From Cellulomonas sp. HZM (GTDB lineage: Bacteria; Actinomycetota; Actinomycetes; Actinomycetales; Cellulomonadaceae): DNA of 64,000 bases. The DNA lies in assembly GCF_000708885.1 (NCBI RefSeq), contig NZ_JEOE01000001.1, positions 186,001 through 250,000 on the forward strand, in the 5' to 3' direction. Positions 33,775 through 49,319 of the stretch are shown one piece after another; positions within the stretch are counted from its first letter, which is position 1, and every line of letters begins with the position of its first letter. Position numbers and translations under genes: made by a program. The notes beneath the pieces are model-generated. The model was not told the DNA's origin, did no database searches, and worked only from the letters and a program-made list of their open reading frames with translations.

Positions 33775-35799
33775 TCACGCGCGAGCCGCGTCTGCGGCGT
33801 CGACGCCCACGGCACCCGCACTCGCGCCGGGCGCCTCGCCGGTCCCGGTGCCCGCGAGTGCGGCGACGACGGCAGCGGCCGTGCGGTCGCCCATCCCGGG
33901 AACCGTCGCGATCTCCTCGACGGAGGCGGCGCGGAGTCGCTTGACCGACCCGAAGTGCCGCAGCAGCGCAGCCTGCCGAGCGGGTCCGAGCCCCGGCACG
34001 TCGTCGAGCACCGACGTCGTCATGCCCTTGCTCCGCCGCTTGCGGTGCGCGGTGATCGCGAACCGGTGCGCCTCGTCGCGCACGCGTTGCAGCAGGTACA
34101 GGCCCTGCGAGCTGCGCGGGAGGATCACCGGGTGGTCGTCGCCCGGGACCCACACCTCCTCGAGGCGCTTGGCGAGGCCGCACAGCGCGACGTCGTCGAT
34201 GCCGAGCTCCGCGAGCGCCGCTGCGGCAGCGGCGACCTGCGGCGGTCCACCGTCGACGACCACCAGGTTCGGAGGGTAGGCGAAGCGGACCGGCTTGCCC
34301 GTGCGTTCGTCGATCGGGCCCGACCGGGGCCGGTCGTCGTCAGACCAGTCGTCGGCGCCGAGCTCGACGTCGCGGGCATCCGACCGCTCGCTCAGGTACC
34401 GCCGGAATCGGCGCGTGATGACCTCGTGCATGGCAGCCGTGTCGTCCCGCGCGCCTTGCCCCTCGGGTCCGCGCACGCTGAACAGCCGATACTCGCTCTT
34501 GCGCGGCAGGCCGTCCTCGAAGACGACCATCGACGCGGACTGGAACGTCCCCTGGTTGTGCGACACGTCGTAGCACTCGATCCGCAGCGGCGCCGACGTC
34601 AGGTCGAGCGCCTCCTGGATCTCCTGCAGCGCCTGGCTGCGCGTCGTCAGGTCGCCCGCACGGCGCGTGCGGTGCAGCACCAGCGCGTGCTCGGCGTTCT
34701 TGCGCACGGTCTGGGCGAGCTCACGCTTGTCACCACGCTGCGGGACCCGCACCTGCACGCGCGAGCCGCGCATGCCGCTCAGCCAGTCCTGCACCTGCTC
34801 GACGTCCGGAGGCAGCACGGGGACCAGCACCTCGCGCGGCACGGACGCGCCGTCGCCTGCCTCGTCGGCGCCGTACACCTGCTGCAGCAGGTGCTCGACG
34901 AGCGCGCCGTCGTCGACGTCCTCGACCTTCTCGACGACCCATCCACGCTGGCCACGGATGCGACCGTCCCGCACGTGGAAGACCTGGACCGCGGCCTCGA
35001 GCTCGTCGCCCGCGAGCGCGAAGATGTCGGCGTCCGTGCCGTCGGCGAGCACGACGGCGTTGCGCTCGGTCGCCTTCTCGAGCGTCTGGACGTCGTCCCG
35101 GAGGCGTGCCGCGCGCTCGTAGTCCAGCTCCGAGGCGGCCTCTTTCATCCGCGCGGTGAGTCGGCGCGTGAAACGCGCCGTGTCCCCCGCCATGAAGTCG
35201 CAGAAGTCCTGCGCGAGCTGGTGGTGGTCGTCCGCCGAGATGCGGCCCACGCACGGCGCCGAGCACTTGTCGATGTATCCGAGCAGGCACGGGCGTCCCT
35301 GCTGCGCGGCGCGCTTGAAGACCCCCGACGAGCACGTGCGCACCGGGAAGACGCGCAGCAGCAGGTCGACCGTCTCCCGGATCGCCCACGCGTGCGCGTA
35401 CGGACCGAAGTACCGCGTGCCCCGACGCTTCGCCCCCCGCATCACCTGCACGCGCGGGAACTCGTCGGCCATCGTCACGGCGAGGTACGGGTACGACTTG
35501 TCGTCCCGGTACTTCACGTTGAACCGCGGGTCGAACTCCTTGATCCACGAGTACTCGAGCGCGAGCGCGGCCACCTCGGTCGGGACGACCGTCCACTCGA
35601 CCGCCGCCGCCGTCGTGACCATCTGGAACGTCCGCGGGTGCAGGCCCGCGGGGTCCTGGAAGTAGCTGCTCAGGCGCTGGCGCAGGCTCTTCGCCTTGCC
35701 GACGTACACGACCCGGCCGTGCTCGTCCCGGAACCGGTAGACGCCCGGCTCGTCGGGGATCTCCCCCGGCGCGGGGCGGTACGTGGACGGGTCGGCCAT
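33775..35799 (-). CDS. uvrC: Excinuclease ABC subunit C
   Basis: 674 residues from ATG 35799 ([20 protein letters not shown]). The N-terminal GIY-YIG nuclease ([20 protein letters not shown], about 18-38) makes the 3' incision. A Cys-rich helix, the UVR motif ([20 protein letters not shown], about 215-235), the RNase-H-like endonuclease for the 5' incision ([20 protein letters not shown]) and C-terminal helix-hairpin-helices ([20 protein letters not shown]) follow. An upstream ATG at 35829 is rejected because TAGGCT sits 7 nt before 35799, making this start leaderless. The promoter carries a PafBC-like element. Confidence 0.97.
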
Positions 35800-35806
35800 G
35801 ACGACG

Positions 35807-35828
35807 AGCCTAGTTCGCCCCTCCGACA
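35807..35828 (-). promoter_or_regulatory. PafBC-type DNA-damage promoter of uvrC
   Basis: Leftward strand: TGTCGGAG (35828-35821), 8 bp, TAGGCT (35812-35807), then 7 nt to ATG 35799. The mycobacterial PafBC consensus is TTGTCRGTG-N8-TANNNT; this site differs at one of eight core positions. No LexA box is visible. Confidence 0.6.
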
Positions 35829-36387: not shown

Positions 36388-39249
<2,862 letters not shown>

Positions 39250-39256
39250 GCCGACG

Positions 39257-39279
39257 AGTGTACGTTCCACCACCGACAT
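39257..39279 (-). promoter_or_regulatory. PafBC-type DNA-damage promoter of uvrA
   Basis: Leftward strand: ATGTCGGTG (39279-39271), 8 bp, TACACT (39262-39257), then 7 nt to GTG 39249. It matches TTGTCRGTG-N8-TANNNT at every position but the first. The stretch GTCGGTGGTGG is identical in the uvrB promoter. Confidence 0.75.
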
Positions 39280-39295
39280 TCGCACAGCTGTTCGA
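39280..39295. promoter_or_regulatory. LexA (SOS) box upstream of uvrA
   Basis: On the leftward strand TCGAAC-AGCT-GTGCGA, one mismatch from the actinobacterial LexA consensus TCGAAC-N4-GTTCGA. It abuts the PafBC element and would cover the -35 region, so LexA could block the same promoter. GH15 starts 55 bp away in the other direction. Confidence 0.75.
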
Positions 39296-39349: not shown

Positions 39350-41197
39350 ATGGAGCCGATCGCCGACTACGCCGTCCTCGGGGACGGCCGCACCGCTGCC
39401 CTCGTCTCGCTGCACGGGTCCGTCGACTGGATGTGCCTGCCGGGCTTCGACAGCGCCGCCTGCTTCGCCGCGCTGCTGGGGACCGCCGACAACGGCCGGT
39501 GGGTCCTGACCGTCCCGGACGCGACCGACGTGACCCGCACGTACGACGGCGACTCGTTCGTCCTCGAGACGCGCTACGTGTCCCCCACCGGCGAGGCCCT
39601 CGTGCGGGAGACCATGCCGCTCGGCGACGGCCGTGCCGACCTCGTGCGCCGCATCGAGTGCACCCGCGGGCACGTCGACGTCGAGCACGAGTGGGTCGTG
39701 CGGTTCGGGTACGGAGCGATCGAGCCGTGGGTCAACCACGTCGTCGGCGCCGACGGCGAGGAGGCCATCCGGGCGATCGCCGGTCCCGACGCGCTGCTGC
39801 TGCGCGGCGACCGACTCCCCCAGGCGTCCGACCACCGCCACCGGGACGAGTTCCGCCTCGACGAGGGCGAGGCGGTCGAGCTCGCGGTCACGTGGACGCC
39901 CTCGTGGGTCGAGGTGCCCGAGCGGCTCACGATCACCGACCGCATCGACGCGACGCGCATCGCCTGGGGGCTGTGGGCGCGCAGCAGCCCGTACGAGGGC
40001 TCCTACCGCGAGGCGGTGGTCCGCTCGCTGCTCGTGCTGCGCCTCCTGACCGACATCGAGACGGGCGGCATCGTCGCCGCGGTGACGACCTCGCTGCCCG
40101 AGGACTTCGGCGGGGAACGCAACTGGGACTACCGCTACTGCTGGCTCCGGGACGCCGCGATGACACTCGAGGCGTTGCTCGAGCACGGGTTCCGCGACGA
40201 GGCGACCCAGTGGCGCGACTGGCTCCTGCGGGCCGTCGCGGGCGACCCTGCGGACCTGAGGATCATGTACCGCGTCGACGGCGGTCGTGACCTCGACGAG
40301 CGCGAGCTCGACCACCTCCCCGGGTACGCGGGCTCCCGCCCCGTGCGCATCGGTAACGCGGCGGCGGGGCAGGTGCAGCACGACGTGCTCGGCGAGGTGA
40401 TGTGCGCGCTCGCGATGGCTCGCGAGGGCGGCCTCGAGGAGACCGCGGACTCGTGGTCGCTGCAGCGGCACCTGGTCGAGGACCTGGTCGACCACTGGCG
40501 CGAGCCCGACCGCGGGATCTGGGAGGTGCGCGGCGAGCCGCAGCACTTCACCCACTCGAAGGTCATGGCCTGGGCGGCCTTCGACCGAGCGGTGCGCGCG
40601 GTCGAGCGGTACGGTCTCGACGGCCCGGTCGACCGCTGGCGCGAGGCGCGTGACGCCGTGCGGGCGGACGTCATGGAGCACGCGTGGGACGACGAGCGCC
40701 AGACGTTCGTGCAGTCGTACTCGGCGCGCCACACCGACGCGGCGCTCCTGCAGATGGTGCAGGTGGGCTTCCTGCCGGGCGACGACCCGCGTCTCGCGTC
40801 CACCATCGCGGTGATCCGCGACGAGCTCGAGATCGCCCCCGGCCTGCTGCGCCGCTACCGCACGGAGCGCACGGACGACGGGGTCTCGGGCGACGAGCAC
40901 GGGTTCCTGGCGTGCTCGTTCTGGCTCGCCGACGCGCTCGCCCGCACAGGCGACGTGGACGGCGCGACGGCGGTGCTCGACGAGCTCGTGGGACTTGCCA
41001 ACGACGTCGGGCTGCTGAGCGAGCAGTACGACCCGGTCGGCCGACGCATGGCCGGCAACCTGCCCCAGGCGCTCTCGCACCTCGCGCTCGTGCGAGCGGT
41101 GCGCAGCCACGACCTCGCGTCCCGCGGCCGCCCGTGCGACGAGCGCCTCGATCCCGACGACCCGGATCCCGCCCGCGGGCAGAAGGAGGACCGATGA
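39350..41197 (+). CDS. Glycoside hydrolase family 15 protein (trehalase/glucoamylase type)
   Basis: 615 residues from ATG 39350 with AGGA upstream. An N-terminal beta-sandwich (about 1-220; [31 protein letters not shown]) precedes the (alpha/alpha)6 barrel. Barrel motifs: [40 protein letters not shown] with the proposed catalytic acid, and GLLSEQYDP with the proposed base. No signal peptide, so it acts inside the cell. Mycobacterial relatives hydrolyse trehalose, others alpha-1,4-glucosides; the substrate here is open. Coupled by ATGA to a metallo-beta-lactamase-fold gene. Confidence 0.9.
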
Positions 41198-47185: not shown

Positions 47186-49291
<2,106 letters not shown>

Positions 49292-49297
49292 GCCCTC

Positions 49298-49319
49298 ACG
49301 CTACGTGCCACCACCGACA
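49298..49319 (-). promoter_or_regulatory. PafBC-type DNA-damage promoter of uvrB
   Basis: Leftward strand: TGTCGGTG (49319-49312), 8 bp, TAGCGT (49303-49298), then 6 nt to ATG 49291. All eight core positions of TGTCRGTG match. No LexA box is visible in the region up to 49350. Confidence 0.75.

Follow-up and report, generated by a model that had tools for sequence, protein, structure and literature searches.

Layout of the uvrA promoter

The 64-kb stretch of Cellulomonas DNA analysed here (referred to below as the window) carries a uvrA gene on its minus strand, and the region directly upstream of this gene holds a LexA-type box, a PafBC-type element and a -10 element in close succession. Coordinates are window positions, and promoter positions are numbered such that the G of the uvrA GTG (39249) is +1. 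The features are as follows:

36388 to 39249, minus strand: uvrA coding sequence, 953 aa (NF001503 and TIGR00630 UvrA models, E = 0)
39280 to 39295 (-46 to -31), minus strand: LexA-type (SOS) box TCGAACAGCTGTGCGA, i.e., TCGAAC-AGCT-GTGCGA (assigned from the sequence and from family conservation)
39283, minus strand: base 13 of the box, a G, which is a conserved departure from the palindrome (counts over uvrA boxes)
39271 to 39278 (-29 to -22), minus strand: PafBC-type -26 element TGTCGGTG (motif enrichment and family conservation)
39257 to 39262 (-13 to -8), minus strand: -10 element TACACT, of the form TANNNT (spacing kept in the family)
39247 to 39249, minus strand: GTG start codon of uvrA and, judging from the spacing, presumably also the transcription start (leaderless)
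39277 to 39279, minus strand: an ATG in frame with uvrA that lies partly within the PafBC element and is unlikely to be the start (family comparison)

On the minus strand, the order is thus the box, one base, TGTCGGTG, 8 bp, TACACT, 7 nt and GTG, and both the sequence and the coordinates are exactly those given in a preliminary description of this region. That description placed the box one mismatch from the actinobacterial LexA box, and one mismatch to TCGAACNNNNGTTCGA (TCGAAC-N4-GTTCGA) is indeed found; the box has no mismatch to the Streptomyces LexA consensus as quoted in PMC9380542 (tCGAAC-N4-GNNCGa). The downstream part, previously likened to the mycobacterial PafBC promoter, matches TGTCRGTG-N8-TANNNT perfectly at 39257-39278. 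The two elements had also been said to touch, which is true of the element as originally drawn because it includes a leading A, whereas one base lies between the box and TGTCGGTG itself. The GTGCGA half of the box occupies the place of a -35 hexamer, 17 bp from TANNNT. The divergent neighbour, which is GH15-like by eye only, has its ATG at 39350, 100 bp away.

Within the 64-kb window, the PafBC pattern with at most one mismatch occurs three times (0.33 expected), and the LexA pattern at the same tolerance also occurs three times (0.21 expected); in either case, none of 100 shuffles reached three. In the whole genome, TCGAACNNNNGTTCGA with at most two mismatches gives 537 matches compared with 193 in the control, and two places are perfect. 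Because such loose LexA matches are frequent in the genome, a lone LexA-like match at uvrA would be weak evidence, and it is conservation that decides.

Conservation in the host family

Among 150 genomes of the host family, 146 (25 genera) could be anchored at the UvrA start; G026, G108, G114 and G126 were left out for want of a UvrA N-terminus to anchor, and where UvrA has a longer N-terminus, the anchor of a few promoters fell too far downstream (offsets -59 to -81). A box was scored at two or fewer mismatches to TCGAACNNNNGTNCGA, and 7250 dinucleotide shuffles (50 per promoter) served as the control. By this script, a LexA-type box is present in 145 of the 146 uvrA promoters, with 141 of them having it at -50 to -39, a position at which it appears in 31 of the 7250 shuffled promoters. 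The only promoter scored without a box (G053) was wrongly anchored, and its locus (L187) shows both elements by eye. Averaged over genera, the most frequent base makes up 0.82-1.0 of the half-site columns (0.64 at base 13), whereas in the 20 columns that precede the box it makes up 0.31-0.57.

A PafBC element with at most one mismatch adjoins the box in 90 of the 145 promoters, representing 17 of the 25 genera, and one with at most two mismatches in 104, where the gap is 1 bp in 96 cases. At the family's uvrA genes, the LexA box is therefore better conserved than the PafBC element. Since 41 of the 145 promoters keep the box but, with at least three mismatches at the adjoining place, have no recognisable PafBC element, PafBC appears to be the more dispensable input; these promoters, together with the 8 of 25 genera that have no adjoining element with one mismatch or fewer, also indicate that the pair is not obligatory. 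Nonetheless, the comparison suggests that the LexA/PafBC pair at uvrA of Cellulomonas and its relatives is real, old and under selection.

The single mismatch of the box is present, as previously stated, but it is conserved rather than a product of drift. Base 13, for which the palindrome expects T, is G in 99, A in 45 and T in one of the 145 family uvrA boxes, so that G or A is found in 144. In 30 of the same genomes, by a scoring without bias toward T, the recA boxes have T in 23 cases, A in 4 and G in 3, whereas the uvrA boxes have G in 19, A in 11 and T in none. Because uvrA and recA differ in this manner within the same genomes, the mismatch is a feature of the uvrA promoter. It may tune or lower the affinity for LexA; however, PMC9380542 describes tighter LexA binding at S. 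venezuelae dnaE2-2, whose box also has GTAC, than at the uvrA box. Alternatively, base 13 may serve a -35-type contact of the polymerase or of PafBC. The position of GTRCGA at the place of a -35 hexamer, 17 bp from TANNNT, speaks for such a contact, whereas family f9 of the same order, with T at this base in 8 of 8 promoters, speaks against it, although those promoters have no PafBC element. Of the 96 composite promoters, whose element has no more than one mismatch, one has T at base 13, and of the 63 boxes that no element adjoins (at least three mismatches), 15 have it; this contrast does not constitute independent evidence because 8 of these 15 belong to the single family f9.

The family comparison also bears on the start codon. 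In the 137 of the 146 promoters that could be anchored at GTG, TANNNT ends 6 nt before this codon in 119, 7 nt in 16 and 8 nt in 2. There is no in-frame upstream start before a stop within 200 bp in 78 of the 137, and an in-frame ATG at -30 recurs in 5 of the 14 same-genus promoters anchored at GTG (3 of 17 could not be anchored). Because these 78 promoters have no in-frame start upstream, the GTG at 39249 is the likelier start of uvrA. The ATG at 39279, though in frame, was rejected as the start purely by this comparison. It had been proposed that this ATG sits inside the promoter and that a leaderless GTG is the start; the absence of an upstream start in 78 of 137 promoters and the preserved spacing between TANNNT and GTG in all 137 bear this out comparatively, and a leaderless GTG is thus favoured.

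Regulators, PafBC motifs and the distribution of the pair

A genome search yields one LexA match and one RecA match in the host. PafB and PafC are encoded as a pair in one locus (near G000:C1:153.3-155.2 kb); both proteins have WYL domains, the second also has HTH_PafC, and neither is matched by an NCBIfam model. In the family, a PafB match is present in 150 of 150 genomes at E <= 1e-3 and in 146 at E <= 4e-27, and the weak matches in the fragmented drafts G125, G130, G133 and G139 may be other WYL proteins. In several family genomes, two LexA-like boxes lie in tandem upstream of lexA (L310, TCGAACAGGTGTTCGTCGAACGTCTGTACGA; L311, L319, L322, L327 and others of 30 lexA loci); these perhaps serve a neighbouring gene.

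A genome-wide scan for TGTCRGTG-N8-TANNNT, which the preliminary description had proposed, returns 31 matches in the 3.56-Mb genome and none in the reversed control, and repair genes are among the targets. The genes behind 30 of the 31 loci were read. They include uvrA, uvrB, recA, ssb, dnaE1, uvrD and radA, as well as genes for a PD-(D/E)XK nuclease, an O6-methylguanine methyltransferase and a LigD-type polymerase and two AlkZ-like genes. Pfam identified the methyltransferase, the nuclease, the AlkZ-like proteins, SSB and the RadA-like ATPase, and recA and uvrA were identified by searches of their own; the remaining names, including the name radA, were assigned by eye. Several of the loci precede genes that are not repair genes (by eye, transporters, metK and RNase PH), and for this reason some matches need not be working sites. 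Among 30 PafBC promoters of the host genome that were scanned for it, only that of uvrA has a LexA box within two mismatches between -70 and +60.

Two other uvr genes of the window, both named by eye, lie behind similar sequences. At uvrB, a perfect PafBC motif (49298-49319, minus strand) is followed by an ATG at 49291, 6 nt after TANNNT, and at uvrC, a motif with one mismatch (TGTCGGAG; 35807-35828, minus strand) is followed by an ATG at 35799, 7 nt after TANNNT. It may be, then, that uvrA, uvrB and uvrC are all leaderless PafBC targets. The two AlkZ-like DNA glycosylase genes (L022 and L023) share one contig (G000:C14) and have identical PafBC-type promoters and identical predicted proteins.

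Outside the family, 85 of 183 genomes of the same order were surveyed, of which 69 were hand-picked to cover the families and 16 came as loci, with f10 missing. Elsewhere in the order, most uvrA promoters do not combine the two elements but have just one of them or none. The PafBC element without the box is found in 26 of 33 promoters of f5, f7, f8 and f14-f18 and likewise in 2 of 3 of f19. The box without the PafBC element is found in f3 (8 of 11), f12 (2 of 2) and f9 (8 of 8, each with TCGAAC-N4-GTTCGA at the same place). In f13, the box is present in 8 of 8 promoters, five of them with the element; in f20, it is present in 2 of 8, one of them with the element; and in f2, f4, f6 and f11, neither element is present in 11 of 12. 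In one f15 promoter (L440, genome G275), 15 bp separate a LexA-like box at -60 (TCGAACGGGTGTGCCA) from a perfect PafBC motif at -29; this LexA box was possibly acquired independently. A PafB match was found in 72 of 80 surveyed genomes, including 13 of 13 of f9 and 0 of 4 of f4, and was missing from 3 of 15 of f3. The idea that loss of the PafBC element tracks loss of the regulator was rejected because in f9, none of 8 uvrA promoters has the element, yet all 13 genomes give a PafB match.

In a midpoint-rooted UvrA tree of 62 of 67 rows, some of them long, the box-bearing families form one group of 37 rows (support 87/83, which is under the mark for strong support) with one member, G319, that has no box; this group is nested with f11 in a strongly supported group (100/97). 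Together, the tree and the family survey fit a course in which an older PafBC promoter acquired the LexA box a single time and the PafBC element was afterwards lost repeatedly.

A wider sample was provided by the best 80 of 583 named uvrA places, with Cellulomonas as the top named relatives (96-97% across UvrA residues 1 to 216). Among these 80, the PafBC motif (at most one mismatch, -160 to +12) is present in 53, including 48 of the 73 outside the Cellulomonas-Promicromonospora group. Within the same 80, a LexA box (at most one mismatch to TCGAACNNNNGTNCGA) lies at -45 to -48 in 7 of 7 members of that group as well as in Actinomyces israelii and one Ruaniaceae genome; two further places (L153 and L154) have a LexA box elsewhere upstream. 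The exact LexA/PafBC composite was not found in viral contigs; a composite search at three mismatches, which also matched in its control, was used only for locus finding.

A probable composite promoter compared with known systems

The elements, their spacing and conservation, the regulator genes and the genome-wide PafBC motif set are observed, and from them we infer protein binding, the transcription start and two inputs acting in series. It is probable that uvrA has a composite leaderless promoter with two DNA-damage inputs, in which LexA represses and PafBC activates. The preliminary description had predicted LexA/RecA and PafBC as layered inputs, and the motif set, the regulator genes, the conserved box and the conserved GTG all lend support to this prediction.

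PafB is reported to read the -26 motif and PafC to contact sigma domain 4, with single-stranded DNA activating PafBC (PMC11804915), and LexA is described as being cleared by RecA on single-stranded DNA (PMC8223512). Applied to Cellulomonas, this would mean that in the undamaged cell, LexA sits at -46 to -31, where it covers the -35 region, borders on the upstream side of the PafBC element and would keep off RNA polymerase as well as PafBC with sigma domain 4. Because -46 to -31 covers the place of sigma domain 4 and abuts the PafB site, LexA should block both ordinary and PafBC-aided initiation. Upon damage, single-stranded DNA would feed both arms: RecA filaments would trigger the self-cleavage of LexA and thereby clear the box, and activated PafBC would read TGTCGGTG at -26, so that the housekeeping polymerase could initiate at TACACT even though a good -35 is absent. 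Full expression of uvrA would then require, as the geometry implies, both that LexA is gone and that PafBC is active.

Other explanations have to be weighed against this one. It is possible, though unlikely, that LexA is the working regulator and that the PafBC element is a leftover from an ancestor, still present in some genera. The unequal conservation within the family (box in 145 of 146 promoters, PafBC element in 90 of 145) would fit such a relic, as would the boxes without an adjoining element in f3 (8 of 11), f9 (8 of 8) and f12 (2 of 2), with f9 still retaining the PafB gene (13 of 13); however, the element of the host genome is perfect and belongs to a motif set of 31 matches versus none, and 17 of the 25 genera have it with at most one mismatch. 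It is considerably harder to believe that PafBC alone drives uvrA and that the LexA-like sequence is a -35 or the site of some other protein that happens to resemble an SOS box. Such a reading gains from GTGCGA lying at the -35 place, 17 bp from TANNNT, and from the conserved G/A at base 13 that departs from the SOS palindrome, but it leaves unexplained why conservation extends over all 16 bp of the two-fold pattern and takes in the outer TCGAAC half, for which a -35 has no use. Moreover, TCGAAC-N4-GTTCGA occupies this position in all 8 uvrA promoters of f9, a family without the element at uvrA, whereas the PafBC-only uvrA promoters of other families do without the 16-bp pattern. Chance juxtaposition of two short motifs can practically be dismissed, for although loose LexA matches arise in a GC-rich host genome, the box position is fixed in 141 of 146 relatives compared with 31 of 7250 shuffles.

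The promoter with two inputs, LexA repressing and PafBC activating, might further be seen as an AND gate in the middle of a handover, a view that we offer tentatively and that may well need revision. A LexA box would have been gained once on an ancestral PafBC promoter, and its proximal half would have become fixed off the palindrome (GTRCGA), letting repressor and activator share -36 to -22. Lineages would then have repeatedly dropped the PafBC element and kept the regulator, such that uvrA passes from an activator to a repressor at the same transcription start.

Parts of this arrangement are known from other actinobacteria. The M. smegmatis uvrA gene is reported to be PafBC dependent (PMC10693628), and RecA-NDp/PafBC promoters of the form TGTCRGTG-N8-TANNNT have been described at repair genes and are said to extend to other Actinobacteria (PMC8223512). 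Cellulomonas uvrA shares with them the motif and the kind of gene, and an adjoining LexA box is not mentioned in the consulted part of that source. The preliminary description had stressed a non-mycobacterial lineage; both elements are indeed present here, but as PMC8223512 indicates, the occurrence of PafBC-type promoters beyond mycobacteria is not in itself new. In C. glutamicum, uvrA is described as having a SigH promoter as a stress input, and a LexA-mutant microarray is quoted in which, of the uvr genes, only uvrC shows (PMC3489674); the likeness to Cellulomonas lies in a stress input other than LexA, which is SigH there and PafBC-type here. For S. venezuelae, a LexA ChIP peak at uvrA and in vitro binding to the uvrA box have been reported (PMC9380542), so a LexA site at uvrA is common to both, demonstrated by ChIP and in vitro there and predicted here. 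The same source mentions a first search, which suggested that S. venezuelae has not conserved the M. smegmatis PafBC motif. Among 13 other Streptomyces uvrA promoters (L122, L125, L126, L127, L133, L135, L139, L140, L147, L150, L151, L155 and L159), the PafBC motif is perfect in 12, and a LexA box within one mismatch is present between -160 and +12 in none.

The closest parallels are genes that receive both inputs. Mycobacterial recA has, according to PMC5656591 and PMC11804915, separate P1 (PafBC) and P2 (LexA) promoters, and it resembles Cellulomonas uvrA in that one repair gene has a PafBC-type and a LexA-type input; unlike these two promoters, the elements at Cellulomonas uvrA share a single promoter with a 1-bp gap. 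In the host genome's own recA (L347), the PafBC motif begins 105 bp downstream of the start of a LexA-type box (TCGAACATGTGTACGG), which is the two-promoter arrangement known from mycobacteria. In the M. tuberculosis Rv2019c-Rv2017c operon, SOS boxes and a PafBC motif are reported to act on one operon (PMC8151990); that promoter differs in having three SOS boxes together with the motif, and the available text of the source describes no fixed adjacency. In the open-licence literature, as far as it was available, we found no description of a fused LexA/PafBC uvrA promoter in Cellulomonas relatives and no paper joining PafBC with Cellulomonas. Both arms sense single-stranded DNA, one removing a repressor and the other helping the polymerase to start, and in the literature consulted, they are mostly placed on separate promoters or treated apart. 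Cellulomonas uvrA would be a natural promoter with both arms on the same 40 bp, surrounded by relatives that range from PafBC-only through composite to LexA-only, and such a series, in soil bacteria that are harmless, would make the logic and the evolution of a regulator handover directly testable.
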